Below, in pieces: positions 25,301-61,130 of a stretch of 64,000 nt of DNA. The stretch comes from a virus, in IMG/VR virus record IMGVR_UViG_3300029268_000010, positions 26,516-90,515 of that record; one strand, given 5' to 3'. Position 1 is the stretch's first letter; each line of letters begins with the position of its first letter. Position numbers and translations under genes: made by a program. A model generated the notes under the pieces. The model had not been told where the DNA came from. It saw only the letters and a program-made list of their open reading frames with translations, and did no database searches.

Positions 25301-28300
25301 ATGCAAGATCTATTTGAGAATATTGACGTTGAAAGAGCAATTAATTTAACATTTTCTGATTCTAAAAATTCTCCTACAGGTAATAAAGGAACCAATGTGA
25401 TTAAAAGGGATAATGAATTATTTGATCCAATGACATCACAATCTCCCATGTTACGTAAAATCCTTTCGTCACTTACTTATTATAGTCACAAAACAGGTGA
25501 AAGACAACACAAATTCATCAGAGAGGCTACTTTGCAATATATATTAATTGATACTGTTGCTACTTTAAAACAAAAAGGAACTAATCCTACTATTGCGGAG
25601 ATTATTAAATCTATGCGTGGGGAGTTAACAAAGAAGTCCGTAAATACAGAACATAAAAATATCATTTATAGTTTCCTTCATGAATTTGGTGAGGAAAATA
25701 ATGGTTATGAAGTCGAAGATATCATTACCAGGGATAACGAAGAATTAAAAACCAGTTTTGCTGACTGGGGAATGGTGTATTTTATCGAACATGCTGAAGA
25801 TTTGAAACAGGCATTTCCTGATATGAAGGAAAGGATCAATGATAAAGTATATGAGGCCAGGGCAATGCTTAATGGAATAGTTTCTTATTATCAGTCATTA
25901 CAAACACTTGCAGCTATAAAAGGAACTGTCAATAAAGATGGCAGTATAGATTTTGAAGAATTTGGTAAGAATCTTGAGAATGTAGTAAAAGCTGATTTAA
26001 GAAAAATAATGCGAGATTCGGTTCTTACTTCTGATAAATCTACTATTGCTAAAAGAATTAGTGAAACTTTTATTGGTCCAAAAAGAAGATATGTATTTCA
26101 TAAAAGTACAGGAAAGAATCCTGTTATGGGATTGTATGAAGTATCTACTGATAGATTAATAATATCTACAAGTACATGGAGAATTGCTGCAGTAGATTAT
26201 AATGCAATATCTGAGTTTTTAGGTTTATCTAAAAGATTATCTGATAGTGAGGTTCTTGGTACTGTCAATAATCAAACACTTGGTCAACAGTTTTTTTATA
26301 TGGTGGCCGGTCTTGCTGTTTCGTCTGCAATTAGTACAAGTGCAGATTTAGCTTTTAAAGACGTTGACGAAAACAAATTGTTATTAGTCGATGATAAGGG
26401 CGTCATTATTCCTAACAAAGATTATATAAGAGAAATAGAAACTCAGGTAAACAGTAAATTAGGTGTTGATGATAAAGGGAAAAAGATAACTTATATGAAT
26501 TTTCCTGAGTTAAAGGAATTACTCGATACGTACTATAAAGACAATGGATTTCAAGCAGAAGATATAAAGAAAATTGAAGTTGGTGAGAATATCATTAATC
26601 TAAAGATGAAACTTTATATTCCTGATCAAATATTTACTTTCTTCAAAGAAATAGCAAAAGGACTTATTTATGAAGGTCGTTATGATAATAATAGGATGAT
26701 CATGAATGTTGACGATGAACCTGTTTATATTCATATATACAGTTCTTTGTTTGCTGAGTTATGGAATTCTGGATCATCACAGACTGTTGCTAATATACAG
26801 ACTCGTATTAAGACAGAAGATACAAAAGGATCCCCGTTATATTCTATTGAAAAAGATAAAAAAGGGAAAACCACTATTGTTTACAATAATGCCGCATTAA
26901 ATGGTAAATTAGGATGGGAACCATATGCCCGTAATTTTGGATTAGAAAAAGTATTTAAGGCATCACAGTTTAAGAATATGACTATAAAGGATGTTCTTTC
27001 TTATATGATTGAGTTGACTGATGATTATATGAGTAACAAAACAACATCTGATACTTATCCTGTAATGTTTGAAACATTTTCTGATAAGAATTTCTCTCCT
27101 ATACTTCCGACTTATGCTATGGACCAGGGAAACAAAATCAAATTATTTAAGATTGAATACAATGATGAATTAGGTAAATTTCAATATATAGTTGATGAAA
27201 CTCATATGGTAAGTATCATTGATGATATTGTACGGTATTATGATCGCGTTAGAAAATTAGCAAATAAAGACATAATGCGTGAATTTAAAATGTCTACTGC
27301 AGAATTCAATAATTACATATCTACAATAAGTCCTAATAGTTCTGCTGGAATGGATGTACGTTTTCGTTTAGAGGAAAATGTTCATTTTGTAATAAAAGGT
27401 AATACTTTTTTACCAGGAAGAGCATTTGCTTCTGATAATGTTTACAATGAAGCATTTTCACAGAAATGGAATGCCGAAACAGAAGGTGGTAAATACAATT
27501 TAATAAGGAAAGCACATCATGATCAATTTTTGAATTTCGGTAAGTTGATAAATGAAAGTGGATATGTATTACCCAAACAAATTCTTTCTAAATTTTCTCA
27601 TTTCGGAATATATCAGCAAGAAGTGGATGAAGAAACAGGTGAAACATTAAATATTACACTTGCACAGTTATATGCTGAAAGAAAATCGACTCTTAAAAAA
27701 TTAGATCTTCAGATAAAAGAAGAACAAAATCCTGATGTAAAAAACACTCTTATAATTAAACATTCTACTGAGAAAATCAGATATAATGAATTAATTAAAA
27801 CATTCAATGAAGGTATTGCTGAGAAAAACTTCATGATGCCTTCTGTTAAAAAATCAATACTTCATGGAGAAACTTCAATTGAAGGAGAATGGCATCCATT
27901 TCTTGAAACAATGTACTGGATGTTCCATATGATGAATGAAACAATATCTCCATTATACAGGGGTCCTTCTATTTATTATCAGGATATCACTGATTTCATT
28001 AAAAGAGCTGCAGGAGATAATGCACCGGGTACTACAATGGTCGCCCAGGATGGCAATGGCATAGGTTCTAAAATGAATTTTATTGCCTTTAATGATATTC
28101 CCGGGTTCAATGAATTATTTGATGAAAAGACAGATCCATATCATGATTTACATACCAATGGTTTTGTTCCGGCAAATCCAGTAAGTTATAAAATGATGCA
28201 GCACTCTTCTGGTGATGCTATTGGAAATATATATCAGGGAGCTTTGAAACCTGTATATAAGTACTACGATCCTATTAAGAACAAAGAAGTATATCTTAAA

Positions 28301-31300
28301 ATGGCAATGATGCCCATTACGTTCAGTCAGTTTAAGAATCATATTTACTATCAGACTTTAATGAGAACATTCCTTGGAGAGAAATATTGGAATGAATATA
28401 ATGAGAGATTATTTGAAAATAAGGAATCTTATAGTGCTGCTGTTGAGGAAATGGCAAAAAAAGCATGGGAGTTTAATCCTGACGGAAGTACCAATAGAGA
28501 AAAAATGGTTGATTTTGCGGTTCACAGATCCGCATATAAATCAGGTGTGACTAAATTAAAAAATTACACTACTGATGTCAATGGAAATGTCATAGCAAAT
28601 CCAACATTTAATAGTTCAGAGAACAAACAAGAAGTATTTACTGAACATTTCAGAATACAGACCATTACACGCCAGGAAACTATCGATACACAGAAAACCC
28701 TTCCCACACAGATATTGTCCGCATTAGGGGCTTTGGATCATAACCAGAAACTTATTACAAGGATAAATGCTGCTCTTTCAGGTTTTGCTACACTGGTTAA
28801 TGATGAAGTATCAAAAACATTGGGTAATGATATAGAACATTCTAAAGCAAGAATAGCGCTTTTATCAAAAATAGGCAAAAGGAATATTGGTATTTCTACG
28901 CAAGCTACCAAATATGGTAAATTAATGACCACTCTTGGTATTCATCCTGATGTATTGCAGAATAAACATGTTAACAATATCATTTCCTACATTAATGATT
29001 ACATAAAACCTTCCATGCCCGGACAATCTTATGTCCAATTGCCACATATAGGTAATATTTTCCGTAATAAAAAAACAGGACAATTATTCTTGGCTCAGGA
29101 TATTGGTCTTGGAAACGATTCTGTTATTCATCCAGAATATGATAATATAAAATTGAAACCTGGCACTTATTTATGGAATGATGGAACCAATTGGAATGAA
29201 TTCACACATGATAGGGATCAGTTGGGTAATATTACTAAAACCGCGTATGATAAATTCAAAGAATTAGCTGAGGCAAATCCTAATTCAATAAAGTATCGTC
29301 CTGCAGATGTTGTTATGCCCTTTCAGTACATGAATAAATTTGGACTTACAAAAGATATGACTTTGCAGCAAGCAATGACATTAGGACCCAAGGAAAAGAT
29401 CAGCATGTACGAAACCGGTGTAAAAGCAGAAAGAAGAACTGTTACTGATACTTTCAACTTCCTTAATGAATTATATCTTAATTATAATGCTTTTGAAATT
29501 CGTGATAGTCTTCCTGCAGCAATAAAGGAAGAACTTAAAAAGCGACTTGATGAGAATAGTGTATTAAAAGGAAAGATTAAAGAAAGACATTTAGATAAAG
29601 TTACAAAAGAAGTTGAGAAGAGGTTTTTCTTACAAGAAGCAGATAGTAATAATGCTGAACTTGTAAAAAAGAATACTGGAGAGAAGATGCTCGCTATTCA
29701 GAATAAATTAGATCATCTTTTATTATCTGATATTAATGCTACTTTGACTGAAATGGCAAAATACTATACTTCCTTCAATGATGCACTTGATGTTTATCTT
29801 GTACGTATTCCTACAACAAATGCTTCGCTGGCTTCATTAGGAAGAATTGTAGCATTTGAAAATGATTTGGACAACGCAATACTCATATCGTCTGAAAAGA
29901 ACATTCTGGATGGTTCCGACTACGATATCGACCAATTATCTGTTTATTTTAGGGCAGTAGATAAATATGGTACAGTAAATACCAGTGATCCTGATAAGGT
30001 CATGGATGATAAGAATGCTTTATTCAAAGCATATCAGAATATGATATTTGATTCCGTTCAGGAATACTATCATAACATCAAGAATCATCCAATGGTACTC
30101 GGTAAAATTGATCTTACCAATATTAAAAATAAAGCAAAGGTTGTTACTGATGCAACAGAAATGCACAATGCTGATATTTCTACTACTTTGGTGGCTAATG
30201 TTGTTAATTTCCTTGGTGGTGCTATGGTGGGATATTTTGCTAATCAGATGAATTTTACTTTTAAATTACTGCATGTTCCTTTAATAACTCAGAGAGATTC
30301 TAATGGTAAAGTTGTTAGGAGAGGCAGAACAGATCAGTCTACAGAAACAAAGATGTTTGATTTATCGCTTGGTGCTATATTTGATGAATCACAGATCCCT
30401 GGTATGGCAGATTTTATCAATAACCTTGTAAATGCTTCTACTGATAATGCGAAACTTGCCGGGGCTATAGGTAAGTTAAATGCAAATCAGGCTACGGCCG
30501 GTGTTGTAAATGGAGCTACACTTGTTGGATTAACCGTTGAAGAGAAATTAAAAGGATTAACTATTGAGGATAAGGTTTTAGCAATAATAAATGATCCTAT
30601 CATTAAAGAAGCTTCAGCTGTTGTTTTGAATTCTATGGCAGTTACTACAAAAGGTGGTAGAAAATTTATGTGGAATGTTCTCAAGGCAAAATTAAAAAAA
30701 GGAGAACAAAAATATACTGTAGAAGAAATTGCAAAAATCAATGATTATATTAAGTTTGCTTATATCGGAGAACAGGTTCGTAGATTTGGTGATATAGTAA
30801 AGATCCAACAGGAATTTGATGTTAATCCAGAAGATTTTATTAGGCAGAAAAATAATATTGAGAAAGCATTAGGAATGTCAATGGGTGACTTCCTTGCAAA
30901 AATAAAAACTATTCGTCTTGACGGTTATTCTGTAAATGATCAGATGAACTGGCTTAAAAAGAGTTTTCCTAATAGTTTTAATGCATCAACTAGTGGCAAA
31001 TCAAATATTGAGAATGAGTTACAAATGCGTTCGATGATTAATATTCCTATGGTTGTTGCACAAATGCCCAATCTTGTTTCTTATGTACAGGCAGCATATA
31101 ATATTGATAATTTTTTAAGTCAAACATTTACTGTTTATAAAGACCAGACGGTTTTGAATAATCTTCTGCGTTTAACAGGAAGGGATATATTAACATTTGA
31201 TAACGAGATAAAAACATTCTATGATGAGTATAAAAAGTATGTGGAAGGTTTATTTATTTCTGAGAAATATAACAATGTAAATATGTCTATTAAGGATGTT

Positions 31301-46156: not shown

Positions 46157-46344
46157 ATCGTTCTTACCTTTCCCCTGAGATATTCAAAAAGTTTGTCCGG
46201 CTGGTCCAGGGCAAATTGAATTGCTTGATTTGCTATCCATCCCGGGTGTGTATTGAGTGACTTACCCATTTTCTGTAAACGGGTATAATTTCTTGATTCC
46301 AGTCCATGTTGAACCGTAGTTCTTTGGTCATAAAGTTTGCTCAT
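46153..46344 (-). CDS. Hypothetical protein
   Basis: 63 aa, basic and helical, with QFALDQPDKLFEYLRGKV near the C-terminus. Coupled by ATGA overlap to the PAPS-reductase-like gene upstream. Confidence 0.6.
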   Translation of the reverse strand: MSKLYDQRTTVQHGLESRNYTRLQKMGKSLNTHPGWIANQAIQFALDQPDKLFEYLRGKVRTI

Positions 46345-47099
46345 AATTCTAATATTAATTGGTTATTTTCATCTTCTTTTAATTCATCGAGAAATATTCT
46401 TCCATGTTTTTTTGAGGGCATAAGCATTGTCTGATCCAGCTCTCTCTCAACTCTGCAATATTCAGCAAATAATTCGGGCATCAGTTTCTTTGCAGTAAGG
46501 AGATCTGCTTTTGAAGCCATGATACAGAAGCAACAAGATAATCGTGTCATTCCAGCTTTATAGGCCCAGTGAGGTTTTTGTTTATGTTCTTTGATAAAGT
46601 CAAAGACTTGTTTTACCTTCCAGTCAAAGATAGGAAACCATTGATACCATGTTCTTTTGCTATTAGACTGACTATCTACTCTTATAAAAGGATCTTTCTT
46701 TGCTCTTCCCGGACTTTCTTCTGCGCGTATGCCCATACAGTTCACTACAACATCAAATCCTCTCTCATTACAGATACCAATAATTTTACTTGATATAGGA
46801 CCCCGTTTAAGGTCGCTGGTGCAGTTTCTGTTCTGAGGTGAAGGAAACATCTTCCTATGGAATATCATATCCCAAAACGTTTTCTTTGCCCTTACAACAT
46901 GAAATTCATGAGAGATTGTTTCTTCAATGTGAGGAATATTACCGGGCCAGTCAACGCCAGGCAAATCTGCATGGATTATAACAAGATTTTCTCTTGGAAT
47001 GATATTTCTCAATGCAAGATACATTGCTTGGGAGTCTTTGCCGGCAGAATGGTTTATTACATACAACACTTTTGGTGTTACTTCTATTGGTAGTTTCAT
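46341..47099 (-). CDS. PAPS reductase / DndC-like PP-loop protein
   Basis: 252 aa. The PP-loop HSAGKDSQA (~16-24, SGKDS type) binds ATP or PAPS; CTSDLKR at ~95, GIRAEES at ~125 and RLSCCFCIM near 190 are the family's other conserved blocks. It matches the phage PAPS-reductase-like family, which could reduce sulfate, activate an acid for DNA or tRNA modification, or adenylate another substrate; the reaction in phages is not settled. It is coupled by 4-bp overlaps to the gene at 47096 and, further upstream, to the sliding clamp and the ThiF gene. Confidence 0.85.
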   Translation of the reverse strand: MKLPIEVTPKVLYVINHSAGKDSQAMYLALRNIIPRENLVIIHADLPGVDWPGNIPHIEETISHEFHVVRAKKTFWDMIFHRKMFPSPQNRNCTSDLKRGPISSKIIGICNERGFDVVVNCMGIRAEESPGRAKKDPFIRVDSQSNSKRTWYQWFPIFDWKVKQVFDFIKEHKQKPHWAYKAGMTRLSCCFCIMASKADLLTAKKLMPELFAEYCRVERELDQTMLMPSKKHGRIFLDELKEDENNQLILEL

Positions 47100-47362
47100 G
47101 TCATTTTAAAATAAACAACGTAGTACGGATCAAGTTTATGATTCTTTGGTATCACTGGTGCCATCACCCAAAAATAGAATGGCGTAACATTACCTTCTTT
47201 TACAACAGATCCTCGGACGGCATCTTTGGTTTTTATCTGAATATACAGCGGTTTGTATTTTACAGGTATTCCTGAAACAACCGTTATCTTTTCTCCATGA
47301 TTATGCATTAAATACTGAAGAAAATAAATTACATCACCTATTTGGTCACTTTTTATTATCAT
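47096..47362 (-). CDS. Hypothetical protein
   Basis: 88 aa, mixed beta composition (KYKPLYIQIKTKDAVRG), not recognised. Its ATGA overlaps the clamp stop on one side and the PAPS-reductase-like start on the other, so it is co-translated with both. Confidence 0.65.
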   Translation of the reverse strand: MIIKSDQIGDVIYFLQYLMHNHGEKITVVSGIPVKYKPLYIQIKTKDAVRGSVVKEGNVTPFYFWVMAPVIPKNHKLDPYYVVYFKMT

Positions 47363-48744
47363 GTTATAAATGGATCATCAGGGTTATTTTCATCAAGTTG
47401 TTCTGCAAGTGGAGTGTCAGTCATTTGTTCTGATTCTTCAGTCTTTTCTTCTTCTTTATCTTTTTCATCAGACAGTCCACTCCATTCAGCGATCGGCATC
47501 ATAAGCTGATCGTTATTGACAATAATTGCTCTATTGTTTAGAGGATTATCATCTATTATAGAGAATCCCATTTTTACTCGTTCAACATTCTTTCCGACAA
47601 GAGTTTTGAATATGTTGGCGCTTACAGCAGTTTCAAATTCCTGGCAGTTACAATCCCATTTTATCTTAAAACAGTTTAAGGTATAACTAAACTGGTTTAT
47701 AAGATCTGTATCTTCAGCGCTGATCATTATTTTGTCAGGTTTTATTTTCATCCGCATTTTATTGACCTGATTTCCTGTGACAGCAATAGAATTTAGTATT
47801 GCAAGGATAATACCTTCATGTGGAACTTCAAGGATGATATTAGGCTGAGGAATTACTGCTTCATAGCGAGGATAGACGTCGACAGGATAACGATAGAATG
47901 CTTGATGTTCTTTCCACCGTATACGAATATAGGGTGTTTCCACTAGTCTTACCTTTGCCAGCATATATCCTTTCTGAGAGAGTTTTGCAAAAGCTTCGTC
48001 GGTAATAGACATTGTAGATGATTCTTCATCATCAATAAATACCTTCTGATAGTCATATGGTTTTGCAAGATGTGTAGCGATAACACTTTTGATAGAATCT
48101 TCATTGATATCTTCTTTTGTTGATGCAGTGATATCAACATGGACAAATTCCTTCTTGGGCCATAATGAGATGATCTTTGGAGTCACCATCCATGGAAGGA
48201 TATTAAAATGTTCATCCATTTCCGGACGGTCATAGAAACACATTTTCATTCCATTGGTGCCTACGATCTTATCCCGGATATAGACATGCATCATCACCGG
48301 CCGATGTTCATCCTTGCCCACATACGGAATTGAATCAACAACCTTTTTAATGGAGAACGTACTGAGGGTATCGATGTATTGCCATTTCCATAATTCATTT
48401 TCTTGCGGAAGTTGAGGAAATTCTTCAGCACTAAGAGAAATGAGATTAAACTCAGCATCCCCATAACATATAGTAAGTTTTGTGACTTCTCCATCTTTTG
48501 CTACTTTTATTTCAAGTGAGTCAGTGATAACATTGTTGATAATATTTTTGAATAGGTTAAAATCCACACACACCTCTTCCATTTCATTCAGTTCAGGTAT
48601 GTCAGATACGAGGCAATTCTCAAGATCAGTGGAAACAATTTTTCCTTTTCCAATCAGGATCATTTCAAGGATAGGCAGCTGTGCCTTTTTAGGAACTATT
48701 TTAGAGTGTAGTGCCAAGCACTTTTTTAATACGGCTGTTCTCAT
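47359..48744 (-). CDS. dnaN: DNA polymerase sliding clamp (DnaN-like) with acidic tail
   Basis: 461 aa against about 370 in bacterial clamps. Near the N-terminus LPILEMILIGKGKIVSTDLE is the clamp signature, and toward the C-terminus NRAIIVNNDQLMMPI matches the usual ...MPIR end of domain III. Between them lie three clamp-like repeats with ~70 extra residues. After the MPI motif comes a 45-residue acidic tail ending in NNPDDPFIT. The protein should encircle DNA and tether a polymerase. The start overlaps the ThiF stop by 4 bp, so clamp and PRTRC cassette are expressed together. The polymerase is not in this window. Confidence 0.85.
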   Translation of the reverse strand: MRTAVLKKCLALHSKIVPKKAQLPILEMILIGKGKIVSTDLENCLVSDIPELNEMEEVCVDFNLFKNIINNVITDSLEIKVAKDGEVTKLTICYGDAEFNLISLSAEEFPQLPQENELWKWQYIDTLSTFSIKKVVDSIPYVGKDEHRPVMMHVYIRDKIVGTNGMKMCFYDRPEMDEHFNILPWMVTPKIISLWPKKEFVHVDITASTKEDINEDSIKSVIATHLAKPYDYQKVFIDDEESSTMSITDEAFAKLSQKGYMLAKVRLVETPYIRIRWKEHQAFYRYPVDVYPRYEAVIPQPNIILEVPHEGIILAILNSIAVTGNQVNKMRMKIKPDKIMISAEDTDLINQFSYTLNCFKIKWDCNCQEFETAVSANIFKTLVGKNVERVKMGFSIIDDNPLNNRAIIVNNDQLMMPIAEWSGLSDEKDKEEEKTEESEQMTDTPLAEQLDENNPDDPFIT

Positions 48745-49535
48745 TTATTTATATATAAAGGGTTAGTTGTCCATGAATCAAGGTTTACGAATACACCATG
48801 CTTATCAGTCTTACCATAACGGAACATTGTCCACATCAGGTGAGCGATCCAGTCTGCCATAAATGAATTGATAAACAGGTCTTGCTTTTCTAATGCTTCG
48901 GTAAGCGAGCAGCTGGGAGTATCATTATCTTCTACACCGGTCTTTAGTTCAGGATAGATATCAAAAACATTAGGAAGCTTATTAGCGCCTTTCATTCCTT
49001 TAGGCTGAGGAATCTTGTGCCGCGTTCCCATGATCACTTGACCGATATTCTTTTTGTTGCCTGCATCAATCCAGTAATAAGTCTTTGCATAAGGTTCATT
49101 GGAATTTTGTTTATTCATCCATCCAAGGACCTTCTGTCTTGATTTGACGGTATCAGTACAGGTAATCATAAAGTTTGCACCATAATTAGTATGATGTGAT
49201 TTACCCCAGTGATAGCAATATGCTTTCCATTCATTGCCAAAAGCAAGGTTTATCCTGCTGATCATTACGTCGGCTTTGAAGAGTCCTACATCCTGTGAAT
49301 AGAATAGTTGCCTGCCTACATTTGCAGTAGTTATCTTGTCTCCATCCCATGCCTGAACGAATAACCCAGGATGTCCTATCCCTCTCAATGCAACATCAAG
49401 CATAGCAAGTTTAGTTAAAAGTAAACTTCCGGTGCCCCCAATTCCTATGACATTGATAGTTATTTTATGAGTAGGATTTAGTATGTATGGATCAGTATAA
49501 TGGAGTAGTGATAATTTTTCCGATATGATCTTCAA
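48741..49535 (-). CDS. PRTRC system ThiF protein (E1-like)
   Basis: 264 aa from a TTG at 49535; no ATG/GTG lies between there and the conserved start, and the longer frame (to 49838) would only be a shadow of protein B. Seen: INVIGIGGTGSLLLTKLA (nucleotide-binding Gly motif), WDGDKITTANVGRQLF (the D ... N-x-x-R-Q ATP contacts), TCTDTVKSRQKV, and DTPSCSLTEALEKQDLFINS. The last block, with Cys at about residue 209, is distinctive for PRTRC ThiF and that Cys is the candidate thioester residue. E1-like enzymes adenylate the C-terminus of a ubiquitin-like partner. It overlaps protein B by 44 bp and the sliding clamp by 4 bp. Confidence 0.88.
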   Translation of the reverse strand: MKIISEKLSLLHYTDPYILNPTHKITINVIGIGGTGSLLLTKLAMLDVALRGIGHPGLFVQAWDGDKITTANVGRQLFYSQDVGLFKADVMISRINLAFGNEWKAYCYHWGKSHHTNYGANFMITCTDTVKSRQKVLGWMNKQNSNEPYAKTYYWIDAGNKKNIGQVIMGTRHKIPQPKGMKGANKLPNVFDIYPELKTGVEDNDTPSCSLTEALEKQDLFINSFMADWIAHLMWTMFRYGKTDKHGVFVNLDSWTTNPLYINK

Positions 49536-50208
49536 GACATTCCGTCGGAATCCAGAACTCTTTTGGGATTTCTTTTTCTTCAGGATTTTTCGTCCTCCAC
49601 TGCCAGTATTCTTTTGTTCCTTTCGGTTCGCCATTATTTGTAAATTTACTGTTAAAGTATGCGTTTGTAAAAGCTTCAGGTATCTCCAGTTTAGTCCATA
49701 TTCTATTTCTGTTGTTGTCACCGACTTTTGTATTTCCGAGACATACTGAGCCAGCAGAATTATAAAACAGGGCATTATAGAGCATTGTTTTTTTATCAGG
49801 TCTTTTATCTTCTTTGTACCAATGGACATGAAGTCCACTATTATAAGTCATGATGAAGCCCGGGCAGTGGTACCATCCTGATTTGAATTCACAAGTAAAC
49901 AAGATCTGTCTTTTTGCAGGCGGCACATGCCAGATAACGGTATTTTTATTGTAGAACAACATTCCTTCCGGTACGATATGAGTAGGATCTTCTTCTGTCT
50001 TGTTGATGATAACAGATTTAAAGATACGGGTAAGAACCACATCACTGAGCATTGTTTCTTTGAGGACATTATATTTACCTTCTATGTTCTCTACGTCACG
50101 ACCTGTGATAAAAGAGTCTCCTGCAGTGGTATTCTGATAGATAGTTATGACCTTTGTAGGAACATATTTTGATTTCAGCAATTTATTTATTTCAACTTCT
50201 TTCGTCAT
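49492..50208 (-). CDS. PRTRC system protein B
   Basis: 238 aa from the ATG at 50208 (17-bp overlap with protein F). Key blocks: VIWHVPPAKRQILF, SGWYHCPGFIM, LHVHWYKEDKRPDKKTMLYNALFYNSAGSVC split here as LYNALFYN and GSVCLGNTK, then AFTNAYFNSKFTN and a C-terminal CLEDHIGKI. This run (H-V-P, PG, N-x-x-G-x-V-C-x-G-x) fits the PRTRC B family. Cys156 in VCLG is conserved there as far as I recall and could be the catalytic Cys of an E2-like fold; that is not proven. The stop lies inside the ThiF gene. Confidence 0.82.
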   Translation of the reverse strand: MTKEVEINKLLKSKYVPTKVITIYQNTTAGDSFITGRDVENIEGKYNVLKETMLSDVVLTRIFKSVIINKTEEDPTHIVPEGMLFYNKNTVIWHVPPAKRQILFTCEFKSGWYHCPGFIMTYNSGLHVHWYKEDKRPDKKTMLYNALFYNSAGSVCLGNTKVGDNNRNRIWTKLEIPEAFTNAYFNSKFTNNGEPKGTKEYWQWRTKNPEEKEIPKEFWIPTECLEDHIGKIITTPLY

Positions 50209-51391
50209 TTTTCTCTTTCCAAATATAACTGTTATAGAAACTGCACATTTTGTCTTTCCAGCGATGGAATATAGTAGGGTAATCAGATTCAAGGTCGAAA
50301 CTTTCATTGATAGTATTAATATCAATATGCCTGTTAAGCACCCATGCCATCTGACCATAGTTTCCTATCCTGTCATTCATATCGTTGTATTCATCTTCGA
50401 ATAGTCTCAGGTTTCCATCCCACACAAAACGATAACAATCTGCAATAGGTAGAACTTCTTCTTCCTGGACACCTGGTATCTCATCAAAGAACTGAAAATT
50501 CTCTATGTTGTATTTATTCTGATACACTTTCTTTGCATAATAGAGTATTTCTGCAAAGTGTTTCATAGGACCAAAGATAGATTTGGACTGAGAATATTTC
50601 TCAATGAATTTATTTATGATTTTCATATCGGGTTTTTTCCTCAGTTTACGCCACCATTCTTCTGCAGGAGAATCATTATACTCTTCCATAGGATTTGTCC
50701 ATTCTGACTCTTTATCAGCTTTTTCATCTTCTTCAATAGTTTCATAATAGTCTTTACGCATATCCAAAAGATCATCCCATAGCAATACATCCCACTTCGC
50801 AGTGAGCATGCGTATCATTTCTATGAAAGCAGTTTTTAGTTCAGCAGGTCTTTTGGAATTAAGGACTGCTTTTATGTCAAAGAATTCAAAGTTAGCTTCG
50901 GACTCTCTGTATAGTCTGTATTCAATTGTCTCTCCATAGCTTCCAAAAGCAAAACTGTTCTTAGTGACGTATTTAGTCAGGTAGTTGCAGATAAACTGGA
51001 ATACTTCCCAGGGTTTCATTTTGCCGAAATCAGTATCACGTACTAGGTCTTTATATTCTTTGTGTTTTGTGATAACACTTCCGGTATTAACGATGATATT
51101 CATCATTTTGTCTCTGGAAAATTTATGATCATTTTTCTCCCATGTAACTTCAGCCCATGATTTATGATTTACGTCAACCTCTATGCTATGAAAGGGGATA
51201 TTGATGAGGGGGGCTTTGAGATGTTTTCTTTTTGAACGGAAAGCAACCTGTAACGGCGATTCTGTCCAGTGTCGTCTTTCATCGAGCTTACGATATTTTC
51301 TGGCAAGTAATTCCATTGTGGTTTTTGTTGTTTCTTTTTCCCGTTCTTCTTTATGTAACCTTGTAAGTCCATTATCCTTTAGTGCCAACAT
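50192..51391 (-). CDS. PRTRC system protein F
   Basis: 399 aa. Assigned to PRTRC F mainly by position between proteins C and B and by length (family ~370-400 aa); no short motif is decisive. Sequence is helical and acidic with long charged stretches, no membrane segment or obvious nucleotide site. Its ATG at 51391 overlaps protein C by 20 bp; an internal Met at residue 26 would give a non-overlapping alternative. The molecular role of F is unknown to me. Confidence 0.65.
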   Translation of the reverse strand: MLALKDNGLTRLHKEEREKETTKTTMELLARKYRKLDERRHWTESPLQVAFRSKRKHLKAPLINIPFHSIEVDVNHKSWAEVTWEKNDHKFSRDKMMNIIVNTGSVITKHKEYKDLVRDTDFGKMKPWEVFQFICNYLTKYVTKNSFAFGSYGETIEYRLYRESEANFEFFDIKAVLNSKRPAELKTAFIEMIRMLTAKWDVLLWDDLLDMRKDYYETIEEDEKADKESEWTNPMEEYNDSPAEEWWRKLRKKPDMKIINKFIEKYSQSKSIFGPMKHFAEILYYAKKVYQNKYNIENFQFFDEIPGVQEEEVLPIADCYRFVWDGNLRLFEDEYNDMNDRIGNYGQMAWVLNRHIDINTINESFDLESDYPTIFHRWKDKMCSFYNSYIWKEKNDERS

Positions 51392-51581
51392 GAGCTACGA
51401 ATTTATATACGGCACTGTCATTTTCAATTATTGGACCTTCTGTTGTTGCATTGGTACATTTCGGGTATTTCCCGGAATAGAATTTTCTGACTTCTTCTAC
51501 TGACATTTTGATATCAGGATCAGGGAGAGTCATTGAATCGAATTTAAAAATACGTGGTAATCCTTTTACTTCTAGTGCCAT
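51372..51581 (-). CDS. PRTRC system protein C (short ubiquitin-like candidate)
   Basis: 69 aa, the usual family size. Strong pattern: LPRIFKF, LPDPDIKMSVEEVRKFYSG, YPKCTNATTEGP and AVYKFVAHVGTKG. Family members have a beta-grasp-like layout, and this one ends in a bare C-terminal Gly (KG*) so no processing is needed before E1 activation. If it acts with ThiF, it would be the conjugated modifier or a sulfur carrier. It starts 2 bp after protein E's stop. Confidence 0.88.
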   Translation of the reverse strand: MALEVKGLPRIFKFDSMTLPDPDIKMSVEEVRKFYSGKYPKCTNATTEGPIIENDSAVYKFVAHVGTKG

Positions 51582-51583
51582 AG

Positions 51584-52186
51584 TTATTCCATATTAAACA
51601 TATCCATTTGAGGTACTTCTTCTTTTACTGGTGTAGCGGCAACGACTTTCTGTCCATTGGCATTGGTAGAGGTCTTTTCCACTTTACCGGTACCGTCGCA
51701 TACTGCACAGTCAATAGTTTCTTCTGAGTCTTCATCATTAGAATCATAATTAGGATTGTCAATAGATCCTTCACCTTTACAGTTAGGGCATTCGTCTTTT
51801 TCTTCTTCTTTAGGTGTAGGTTTAGAATATTTGTTTGGCTTGGCAGGGGTCTTTGATGTTCCGCTTGTCTTGGCTTCTTTTGCTTTCTTCTCAGCATTGG
51901 TTTTTATTACTGACACCGCACTGTCAAGTTGTTTTTTAAAGAAGTCCATATTATTCAGCGCTGAGTTAATTTCAGCGATAGGATTTGCCATGGTATTCCA
52001 GAAGTCATTCTCCAACTCTGCAGGAGTTCCATTCATTAATAATGGAGGAATGACTACGCTCTCTGCTTCTTTAGGGATGCAGGGGATGATCATGACAATA
52101 AGTTTGTCTTTTGTCTTGGTAATTCTGATATCAATGGAGTTATTAACGCTCAGTAGCGAATCCATTTTTACAAAGAATTGTTCCAT
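51584..52186 (-). CDS. PRTRC system protein E with C-terminal zinc-knuckle extension
   Basis: 200 aa. Residues 1-100 match the PRTRC E pattern: FFVKMDSLLS, LIVMIIPCIP, PLLMNGTPAELENDF. After a Lys/Ala-rich linker (~110-135) come CPNCKGEG (~138) and CAVCDGTG (~163), the CxxCxGxG repeats of DnaJ-type zinc centres, then an acidic linker between them and a Q/V tail. The zinc pair is not something I associate with PRTRC E and may be an addition. First gene of the E-C-F-B-ThiF run. Confidence 0.78.
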   Translation of the reverse strand: MEQFFVKMDSLLSVNNSIDIRITKTKDKLIVMIIPCIPKEAESVVIPPLLMNGTPAELENDFWNTMANPIAEINSALNNMDFFKKQLDSAVSVIKTNAEKKAKEAKTSGTSKTPAKPNKYSKPTPKEEEKDECPNCKGEGSIDNPNYDSNDEDSEETIDCAVCDGTGKVEKTSTNANGQKVVAATPVKEEVPQMDMFNME

Positions 52187-58442: not shown

Positions 58443-59333
58443 TTATTTATTAATAAGTTTTTCAAATTCATTTATTGCTAATGCTCTTTGGTAAGTAGTA
58501 AGTTCTTTGCCATAAACAAGTGCTTTTAGATTTTCACATTCAACAGCATCATTACTGGGTTGTTTTATTCCTTCATTATAGGCATTCTGAATTAACTGCA
58601 TTACTTCTTTTGGATATTCTTTTCCAATAGTAACACCCATTGCATACAAGTATGCTAAATTTGGCTTTGGTTTTTCTTCACCAATAACAGGCGAAGGTTG
58701 TTTGTTTTCTATTGGTTTATAACCAGTACATTGTGTTGCACTCTTATAGCAATTAGAAGAGGTTTCTTTGCCCTTTTGAGTATGTTCACAAATAGAACAA
58801 TCATATTGCTTTTCATCCCATACAAGTACTATGTGTCCTTCTTTGATAAGTGGAAATTTCTTTCCGTTACATGGAAAATCTTTACAGTCACACTTAGAAC
58901 TATCAGAACCAGTATATCCATAAGTTTCACAAAAACTATATTCAGCAAATACAGTTGTTTCGCCTTTATTCAGCACATCACAGATACGTGGTAGGTCTTC
59001 TTTGCTGATAGTGGGTATTGCATTTAATAATGGATAAGAAGCGATAATATTTTTTGCTGTTAATGAATACATATTTCCTGTTCCTGCAACCGCTACATTA
59101 TTTTCTCCATTATAATATAGTCCACCTTTTTGTGGATAAATAAACTTTTCATCACTTATAAGTAAGACTTGTTGAGGTTGCCAATAAATTCCAACATCTT
59201 TAAAATCCTGAATATATTGAGATAAGTCTGTTTCTCCATAGTCAAATCTTCCTGATGGATAATGCTTGACTACATCACCTTCCAGTATGGCTCTCTGCAA
59301 TGGGATGGGTATTATTGTTAGTTCTTTTTTCAT
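58443..59333 (-). CDS. Hypothetical protein with Cys clusters
   Basis: 296 aa. Central part has CETYGYTGSDSSKCDCKDFPCNGK and a second cluster CSICEHTQKGKETSSNC, separated by ~25 residues, so it may hold one or two zinc ions. N-terminus has IPIPLQRAILEGDVVKHYPSG; C-terminus is helical. It overlaps the DnaB stop by 4 bp (ATGA), so it is expressed with it. No known family. Confidence 0.6.
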   Translation of the reverse strand: MKKELTIIPIPLQRAILEGDVVKHYPSGRFDYGETDLSQYIQDFKDVGIYWQPQQVLLISDEKFIYPQKGGLYYNGENNVAVAGTGNMYSLTAKNIIASYPLLNAIPTISKEDLPRICDVLNKGETTVFAEYSFCETYGYTGSDSSKCDCKDFPCNGKKFPLIKEGHIVLVWDEKQYDCSICEHTQKGKETSSNCYKSATQCTGYKPIENKQPSPVIGEEKPKPNLAYLYAMGVTIGKEYPKEVMQLIQNAYNEGIKQPSNDAVECENLKALVYGKELTTYQRALAINEFEKLINK

Positions 59334-60766
59334 AAATCTTCAAAATAACGATAATCTAATTCTTTAAGGAAATAGGCTACTCCTATAGTGCCGACGAATC
59401 TGTTTTTTATCACGTCAGCGATCATTACATGCTCCAGATATTCTTGCAGTTTATGACCATTGTATTCTTTTATAAGAGTATCATGTGCTTTAGGGTTGTT
59501 TAATAGAACGATCTGAGTGGATATATCCGATAGTCTGGCTGATCCTCTTAGATGTTCTTCTGTGGGTCTGAATCCTGTAACGATATTTTCTTTGCTGAAC
59601 TGCTTCTTGTCAAAATGATGTGCAGCAATAATAATGGAATCTTCTTTGTGTTCATCATAGATATCGCCAAGGACTGTTGAAATATAATCATCGATCTCTG
59701 TCTGTTTATTTCCGAAACTTTGATCTGAGAGCTTCATAATATTATCAATGACTAAAATATATAGTCTTGACTCTCCTACCTTTCTTCTCTTGTCGCAGAA
59801 ATAGTTAAAATGAGAACGGATGTTTTTGATTTTAGTTCTTTTACCTACAAACTCAATATCAAAACGATTAAAATCTTCTTTAATGTTTACTATCAAAATT
59901 TTTTCTTCCGTATTTAAAATGTAATTTCTTTCTGATAGTTGATTTGCAGTTAAGAATGTTTTAGATGAGATATATCCTTTGACAATATTAACAGGCATAT
60001 CCTCCATTGAGTACCATAGAATAGATACATTTTCATTAAGCTCAGACACGCTGAACATCATTTCACTTATAAGTGAAGTTTTTCCTGATCCCGATTTTCC
60101 GGCTACAAGAATAAGGTTACCTGGGCAAAGCATTAGATATTGATTCAATGCCTTTGGATTCATCTGGTAATAATTCTTTTTAGTTCCTTCTTCTACATCA
60201 ATCATGTTTTTGAACATATCTTCCAGTGTATCATTAACAGTAGTGACAGTAGTCACTGAGTTGGCAACATCAAGAACCTTAAGATTCTTATCATGGTCTG
60301 CTGAAAGGTCAAATACATCTTCGCTATCGAGAAAAGCTCTGGAAGCAGTATCGGTACATATTCGTATTAACTCACGTTTCATAAACTTCTGATAGACAAT
60401 AAGCATATGATATTTGGTATTCACAGCATGAGTCATTTTATTAGTTAATTGTGTTACTGTTATAGCTCCATCAGCTACTAATTCATTCATAACTTTTAGC
60501 TGATGTGTCACAGTATGGATATCAATAGGTTTATTTTTAGAGTATAGTTCAAGTATAGCAGTACATATATGCTGATGTGCGGTCTTGTAAAACACTTCAG
60601 GCTTAAACCAATTGATGATTTCATTAATGATAATAGGAACACTTATGCAGGCCCCCAAGACAGCTTCTTCCAAATCTAAAGCCTGCGGTGGAACCATATC
60701 AAAACGGATCGTCGATGAATGTGTTGCTTTCTGCTTTATCCATTTCTTTTTGTTGTTGTTGTCCAT
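59330..60766 (-). CDS. dnaB: DnaB-like replicative helicase
   Basis: 478 aa from the ATG at 60766; the frame can be read to 60901 but those 45 residues are shadow of the overlapping gene. N-terminal domain pattern PPQALDLEEAVLGACI opens the protein, as in DnaB. Walker A is GKSGSGKTSLI (K at about residue 229), then YSMEDMP, VIDNIMKL (Walker B), IAAHHFDKKQ (H4-like) and GFRPTEEHLRGSARLSD. It unwinds DNA at the replication fork. Overlaps the 143-aa protein by 68 bp, so loader and helicase are coupled. Confidence 0.85.
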   Translation of the reverse strand: MDNNNKKKWIKQKATHSSTIRFDMVPPQALDLEEAVLGACISVPIIINEIINWFKPEVFYKTAHQHICTAILELYSKNKPIDIHTVTHQLKVMNELVADGAITVTQLTNKMTHAVNTKYHMLIVYQKFMKRELIRICTDTASRAFLDSEDVFDLSADHDKNLKVLDVANSVTTVTTVNDTLEDMFKNMIDVEEGTKKNYYQMNPKALNQYLMLCPGNLILVAGKSGSGKTSLISEMMFSVSELNENVSILWYSMEDMPVNIVKGYISSKTFLTANQLSERNYILNTEEKILIVNIKEDFNRFDIEFVGKRTKIKNIRSHFNYFCDKRRKVGESRLYILVIDNIMKLSDQSFGNKQTEIDDYISTVLGDIYDEHKEDSIIIAAHHFDKKQFSKENIVTGFRPTEEHLRGSARLSDISTQIVLLNNPKAHDTLIKEYNGHKLQEYLEHVMIADVIKNRFVGTIGVAYFLKELDYRYFEDL

Positions 60767-61130
60767 TAGGAAATTTAGCTTTAAATTGTTTAATTCGTTT
60801 ACTGATATCATCTCTATCGTAATTACCAAATAGATAACTATCTCTTGGATTATCAGAAATATGAAAAGATTTTTTATATTCTCCAGTAGATACAAAATCA
60901 CTAAAGGATTTTAGTTTTTCAGATTTAGTAATAAATTTATCATCTTGTCCTTTGTATTTAGAATTCCACCATTCAAGGTATTTAGCAAAATGATTATATA
61001 TTACTTCGGGTGTGACAGGTTTTCCTTCAATTGTTAAACCTTCATAAGTAGTCATAAAAGTATAAGACTCTTTTGCAGAAACTTTATCTCCTTGAGGAAA
61101 TAAATTCCAAATCATTTCAAAATAATCCAT
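60699..61130 (-). CDS. Putative helicase loader-like protein with SSB-like acidic tip
   Basis: 143 aa. N-terminal IWNLFPQGDKVSAKESYTFM plus IYNHFAKYLEWWNSKYKG recalls the lead of phage replication-accessory proteins of the DnaD/loader type (F-x-x-(I/L)-Y-P ... Y-x-x-W). The C-terminus ends in NTFIDDPF, an acidic tip of the SSB type. Directly upstream of, and overlapping, dnaB. Function is inferred from place and pattern. Confidence 0.5.
   Translation of the reverse strand: MDYFEMIWNLFPQGDKVSAKESYTFMTTYEGLTIEGKPVTPEVIYNHFAKYLEWWNSKYKGQDDKFITKSEKLKSFSDFVSTGEYKKSFHISDNPRDSYLFGNYDRDDISKRIKQFKAKFPNGQQQQKEMDKAESNTFIDDPF

Follow-up and report, generated by a model that had tools for sequence, protein, structure and literature searches.

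Why do ubiquitin-style genes, a set encountered so far mainly on plasmids, lie among the replication genes of a phage? The question is raised by a stretch of viral DNA of 64,000 nucleotides, positions 26516-90515 of the 90,515-base IMG/VR virus record IMGVR_UViG_3300029268_000010 (L002), which is referred to here as the window. A preliminary description of this DNA had recognized at 48741-52186 five adjacent minus-strand genes of the PRTRC type (E, C, B and ThiF by their sequence blocks and F by its position) inside a replication operon of a crAss-like phage, and had considered the cassette complete-looking. Our analysis places these PRTRC genes in a crAss-like replication operon, beside the gene of a sliding clamp.

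Three of the five proteins scored above the cut-offs of their PRTRC models: ThiF with 241 bits against TIGR03736 (cut-off 144.75), C with 67.3 bits against TIGR03738 (cut-off 45.95) and 79.8 bits against PF14454 Prok_Ub (cut-off 25), and E with 51.5 bits against TIGR03741 (cut-off 37.95) and 67 bits against PF19556 (cut-off 26). The profile search recommended at the outset, in which a lack of hits for C, E or ThiF would have counted against the cassette, thus gave significant hits for all three. B reached 69.6 bits against PF14460 Prok-E2_D (cut-off 25) and 74.5 bits (7e-21) against TIGR03737 PRTRC_B, under the cut-off of 131. No family was matched by F in the NCBIfam and Pfam scans, including TIGR03742. 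However, a profile made with 17 F proteins from other cassettes, leaving out the one of the window, found the latter as its only significant match among the open reading frames (ORFs) of the record (E 2e-15; hhalign 95.9%), and for this reason the assignment that had been made by position is confirmed by homology, specifically to the F of Bacteroidota-type cassettes. The start of F is probably downstream of 51391. The five genes are thus as first described, but the cassette is an A-less and ParB-less E-C-F-B-ThiF subtype and not a complete PRTRC, since neither Prok-JAB (protein A, a JAMM/JAB protease) nor ParB_N was found in the 90.5-kb record, which was covered in full for both and not only along the window.

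The replication context was also borne out. From the ORF upstream of E, through E, C, a small ORF, F, B, ThiF and the clamp, to ORF88 and a gene of the PAPS-reductase family, each gene overlaps or abuts the next, the ATG of the clamp overlapping the TGA stop of ThiF by 4 bp (ATGA), and a DnaB gene is present in the same window (Table 1). The clamp is DnaN-like (PF00712 with 29.3 bits, above the cut-off, and the processivity factor family phrog_947), and a profile of other PRTRC-adjacent clamps, built without that of the window, finds it with E 3e-22.

Regarding the source, a gene upstream of the window codes for a protein with 41.9 bits against PF23898 Crass_capsid (cut-off 27), the portal protein gave matches in 73 phage records, all of those listed being crAss-like phages, and a terminase large subunit (TerL) is encoded in the record. 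By its capsid, portal and terminase the virus is crAss-like (Crassvirales), as had been proposed. The closest relative found was a 21.6-kb fragment, with 36% identity in the major capsid protein (MCP) and 27% in the portal. An assembly chimera is unlikely because there are overlapping genes at either side of the cassette and a similar arrangement recurs in other contigs.

Table 1. Genes of the PRTRC cassette and its neighbours (positions in the window).
Feature	Position	Strand	Length	Description
PRTRC E	51584..52186	-	200 aa	N-terminal PRTRC_E domain; PF19556, TIGR03741 above cut-off
PRTRC C	51372..51581	-	69 aa	Predicted ubiquitin-like protein ending ...VGTKG, mature as encoded; PF14454, TIGR03738
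Small ORF	51181..51372	-	63 aa	ATG overlaps stop of C (TAATG); tentative extra component between C and F
PRTRC F	50192..51391	-	up to 399 aa	Profile of other F proteins, hhalign
PRTRC B	49492..50208	-	238 aa	Predicted E2-like, N-x5-C; PF14460 above cut-off
PRTRC ThiF	48741..~49535	-		Predicted E1-like adenylating enzyme; probable TTG start; 44-bp overlap with B; TIGR03736
DnaN-type sliding clamp	47359..48744	-	461 aa	PF00712, phrog_947, clamp profile
PAPS-reductase-family gene	46341..47099	-		PF01507; few genes downstream of ThiF, after the clamp
DnaB	59330..60901

Two other features of this genome deserve mention. The TerL gene (L002:10869-14045, in bases of the record and upstream of the window) contains an interrupting insert of the LAGLIDADG type that is probably an intein. 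A single and unusually long ORF at 16388-36445 (plus strand) codes for 6,685 residues; its DYDID motif, at residue 4511, is one that the giant crAss RNA polymerase should have, and the product is presumably a crAss-like RNA polymerase polyprotein.

Are the proteins of the cassette equipped for the conjugation of a ubiquitin-like (Ubl) protein? ThiF appears to be an E1-type adenylating enzyme, as had been suggested: over 84 sequences, including that of the window, the nucleotide-binding glycines of GxGGTG, the N-x-GRQ motif, the Lys and the Asp are conserved, and the Cys of the PSCSL motif is kept in 84/84. By its family match C belongs to Prok_Ub and has a free Gly at its end, G66 and the terminal G69 being kept in 80/80 loci. 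B is likewise a Prok-E2_D protein with an E2-like N...C active-site pattern, its Cys and the Asn located six residues before (N150 and C156 in the numbering of alignment A9) being invariant in 81/81 loci. E and F are the conserved partners in the cassette. Among solved structures the relatives of ThiF include eukaryotic E1 and CBASS Cap2, an E1-E2 fusion; for C, B and F no credible relative of solved structure was found. The model of C has the beta-beta-alpha-beta-beta order of a beta-grasp (E-E-H-E-E) followed by a loose C-terminal tail (predicted local distance difference test, pLDDT, 81), and that of B (pLDDT 84) contains a helix, a strand meander, the loop with the Cys and further helices, in the order of elements of an E2. 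Both folds are consistent with Ubl and E2, although unproven. When B was compared with predicted viral structures by Foldseek, three uncharacterized phage proteins gave significant matches with poor superposition. One of them, BFVD A0A172Q0C7 from Acinetobacter phage vB_AbaM_ME3 (E 1e-3), might be a further E2-like protein of phages.

The end of C bears on its possible processing. In cassettes that encode A, C runs from 1 to >90 residues beyond GTKG, with the exceptions of L072 and L195, whereas in those without A it ends at GTKG. Over 73 non-redundant loci C was extended past the terminal Gly only if A was encoded. Counting the viral and plasmid loci, 53 had both A and the extension, 26 neither, one A only and none the extension only, and a second set from bacterial genomes contained 14 with both and 57 with neither, without exception. 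The same was found in 12 plasmids (Pseudomonas, Deinococcus, Pelobacter, Pseudoalteromonas, Sphingobium, Cupriavidus and others), where an extended C was never seen without A. A is missing also from Bacteroidota cassettes and from several plasmids. We claim no significance for this relation, which comprises about four changes. Still, the pattern supports the prediction for a ubiquitin-like precursor and its protease, namely that the extension would never be found without the protease; in the window, where the JAMM protease A is absent, C would be encoded already mature.

To find out what a tag of this kind could be attached to, the flanking genes of 65 non-redundant cassettes, up to a distance of 4.5 kb, were grouped by clustering with no preselection and with antisense artefacts excluded. 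The most recurrent intact neighbour family was the sliding clamp, found in 12 non-redundant loci, mostly at <=40 bases upstream of E, and downstream of ThiF in the window. Ten of the clamps surveyed were checked by Pfam and all of them (10/10) were DNA_pol3_beta. A clamp is present in 18/46 viral records, directly adjacent to the cassette in 14 of these 18, while in L015, L038, L204 and L207 it lies at 1-4 kb. The varied positions argue against one inherited arrangement. In L025 (6326-7417) the clamp gene is located inside the cassette, between C and B.

In most plasmid cassettes the gene directly upstream of E is instead parB. ParB is a CTP-gated clamp that encircles DNA (PMC8367383), and by analogy we infer a common function for these partners of the cassette, as both ParB and the sliding clamp encircle DNA. 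The preliminary description had PRTRC as a traveller of plasmids and integrative elements together with ParB, which holds for the plasmids, but many IMG/VR contigs and the Burkholderia phage BgVeeders33 carry it too. Its association with plasmids and ParB speaks for another possible explanation, that in these phages the cassette does as it does on plasmids and helps to keep or segregate a genome that persists extrachromosomally. CrAss-like phages do persist with their hosts, but the lack of ParB in the record and the location of the cassette within a replication operon make this distinctly unlikely.

The reading that we prefer, quite possible if short of probable, is that this is a phage-borne PRTRC-type Ubl conjugation cascade that most likely tags the clamp or some clamp-bound protein. 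ThiF would adenylate the terminal Gly of C and hold C as a thioester, B would take C over from ThiF, and C would finally be attached to a lysine residue in some phage protein. The clamp itself, or a clamp-bound protein, would be the most likely target because no other gene occurs immediately next to the phage cassettes as often as that of the clamp, be it upstream of E, inside, or downstream of ThiF. Tagging might alter which partners use the clamp, or its unloading, in the manner of the SUMO and ubiquitin modifications of PCNA. On plasmids ParB, the other DNA-encircling clamp, would take its place. As the cassette encodes no protease the tag would be permanent or else removed by a host enzyme.

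Several results weigh against this reading. The Foldseek comparison of C with the PDB gave nothing significant (best E 0.25), with ubiquitin-like domains only below threshold, and that of B gave nothing significant and no E2 among the matches, so that the beta-grasp proposed at first for C and the E2-like nature proposed for B agree with the models, and for B also with the N-x5-C pattern, but find no significant support in the structure searches. A is present without extension of C in L072 and L195 (the latter from the plasmid set), C ends in Ala instead of Gly in L199 and L221, and a ThiF tree with 75 proteins has approximately four changes in A and approximately four in the extension, too few for a test by independent contrasts. 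The binomial probability of clamp adjacency by chance, <1e-12 assuming independent records, is too small a value because the clamp-bearing records are partly related. Proximity of genes, besides, does not show that the clamp is modified. Nor can the clamp be the sole target, because the available records of a second crAss-like lineage (G017, G055 and G073) show no clamp. Finally, the titles and abstracts of the literature searched gave no conjugation by any PRTRC system.

The neighbourhood bears as well on a different use of the same chemistry, in which the Ubl tag is directed at others, either a protein of the host defence or one of an incoming rival phage (anti-defence or superinfection exclusion), much as host Bil and CBASS use E1 and E2. 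Those bacterial systems with E1 and E2 that have been studied to date have their role in conflict with phages (CBASS, PMC10097602), Cap2 is among the solved relatives of ThiF, and PRTRC is exchanged among plasmids, chromosomal elements and phages. However, the cassette is found among replication genes, beside the clamp, DnaB or ParB, and not among defence genes (no PADLOC search was made), and we consider this explanation unlikely. CBASS Cap2/Cap3 and other bacterial Ubl conjugation systems share with the window E1-like and E2-like proteins, and some of them a JAMM protease, but they are separate families with different partners and a role in defence.

The PAPS-reductase-family gene found after the clamp suggests a third use of ThiF, the activation of C as a sulfur carrier like ThiS, MoaD or Urm1, with a thiocarboxylate on C from which a PP-loop enzyme would pass the sulfur to a nucleic acid or cofactor. 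Relatives of this gene are located near PRTRC in L218, L197 and L203, but in no other of the ~190 loci, a rarity by which it was rejected as a regular partner of PRTRC, and the conserved E2-like Cys of B would have no evident role in a simple sulfur transfer. A sulfur carrier seems to us very unlikely.

We have searched for similar cassettes in other phages and elements. Single-sequence searches of IMG/VR with the ThiF and with the clamp of the window found no close relatives, and alignments were therefore used as queries. PRTRC ThiF was found in ~100 IMG/VR contigs, several of them with terminase or portal genes. Among 50,697 phage records, and at the sensitivity used, the cassette appeared only in BgVeeders33 and in a 6.6-kb faecal fragment, and was not found in deposited crAss-like phages. 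Nevertheless, the search for the same block in other Crassvirales, recommended at the outset, was successful: G055 and G073 (loci L208 and L228) match Crass_capsid with 3e-52 and 2e-49, respectively, and the portal and terminase of crAss001, while G017 (L024), with a fragmentary capsid match below the cut-off, was placed as crAss-like by synteny. All three have E-C-F-B-ThiF in the replication module, like the window, but upstream of DnaB and with MCPs ~21% identical to that of the window over the aligned part. In G055 DnaB, an AAA ATPase and further replication and recombination genes come right after the cassette, and G017 has the same order with 28-60% identity. The cassette is thus present in no fewer than two divergent crAss-like lineages.

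This bears on whether the cassette could be a passenger, captured from a mobile element of Bacteroidota and devoid of any role in the phage. The ThiF of the window has <=47% identity to any other found and an unsure position in the tree, on a long branch, so that vertical inheritance among phages is not established for it; the sister grouping of the two crAss-like ThiF lineages is neither established nor rejected (p-AU 0.31). But the catalytic residues have remained intact along this long branch, the genes overlap with the clamp in one operon, and the synteny is conserved in the second crAss-like lineage, for which a passenger, already disfavoured, is highly improbable.

The relatives differ mostly in what surrounds the core genes. 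Bacteroidota PRTRC, for example L005 (NZ_OY725769.1), shares with the window the order E-C-(small ORF)-F-B-ThiF, the lack of A and a C that ends at GTKG, but it is found on a plasmid or chromosome with no adjoining clamp, its E has a long Pro/Gln-rich tail where that of the window has CxxCxGxG, and its ThiF is 41% identical. Proteobacterial and Deinococcus plasmids (Rhodoferax, Cupriavidus, Pseudomonas pWW53) share E, C, F, B and ThiF with the window, but most have ParB as described above and often A, in which case C is usually extended past GTKG. BgVeeders33 carries E, C, small ORF, F, B and ThiF on a phage genome like the window, but has also A, a C extended by 62 residues, and the cassette near the integrase end. 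In this isolated phage (L191, OK665841.1) the E-C-small-F-B-A-ThiF cassette at 25952-30438 is unannotated; the rest of its genome, which includes Mu-like tail genes, is ordinary. The phage offers a laboratory model that is accessible.

A broader proposal, which we regard as doubtful, is that tailed phages tag their own sliding clamp, or in other lineages the DnaB helicase complex, by a complete Ubl pathway while plasmids tag ParB, PRTRC being a general modifier of DNA-encircling proteins. If true, it would be a prokaryotic viral counterpart of the ubiquitylation and SUMOylation of PCNA, a Ubl pathway encoded by phages instead of by the defending cell, and a simple model for the origin of Ubl conjugation to DNA clamps. 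PRTRC is annotated on many plasmids, and in the papers found, by title or abstract, none assigned it a function; neither did any title or abstract treat a phage-borne PRTRC, report a demonstrated function or couple crAss-like phages with ThiF. The phage replication operons, the link with the clamp and the relation between protease and precursor would provide a first testable role for PRTRC and a manageable object for its test.

Some observations concern the minor components. An ORF of 45-95 codons begins at the stop of C in 160/185 loci, against ~49 at random positions, and this small-ORF family, conserved in Bacteroidota-type loci with a C-terminal motif of PP followed by hydrophobic residues and positive in a held-out profile test, is apparently an unnamed component of PRTRC. 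The small ORF of the window was not matched by the family profile, being too divergent, and is a tentative candidate. In the C-terminal tail of the E of the window (51584-51800) CxxCxGxG occurs twice. This zinc-binding pattern, similar to that of DnaJ, matches PF00684 only below the cut-off and is found in none of the other 176 E proteins examined. Finally, a plasmid of Tunicatimonas pelagia carries, alongside its PRTRC cassette, a second and different Ubl operon with multiubiquitin, ThiF and DUF6527 (L192:15059-17106).

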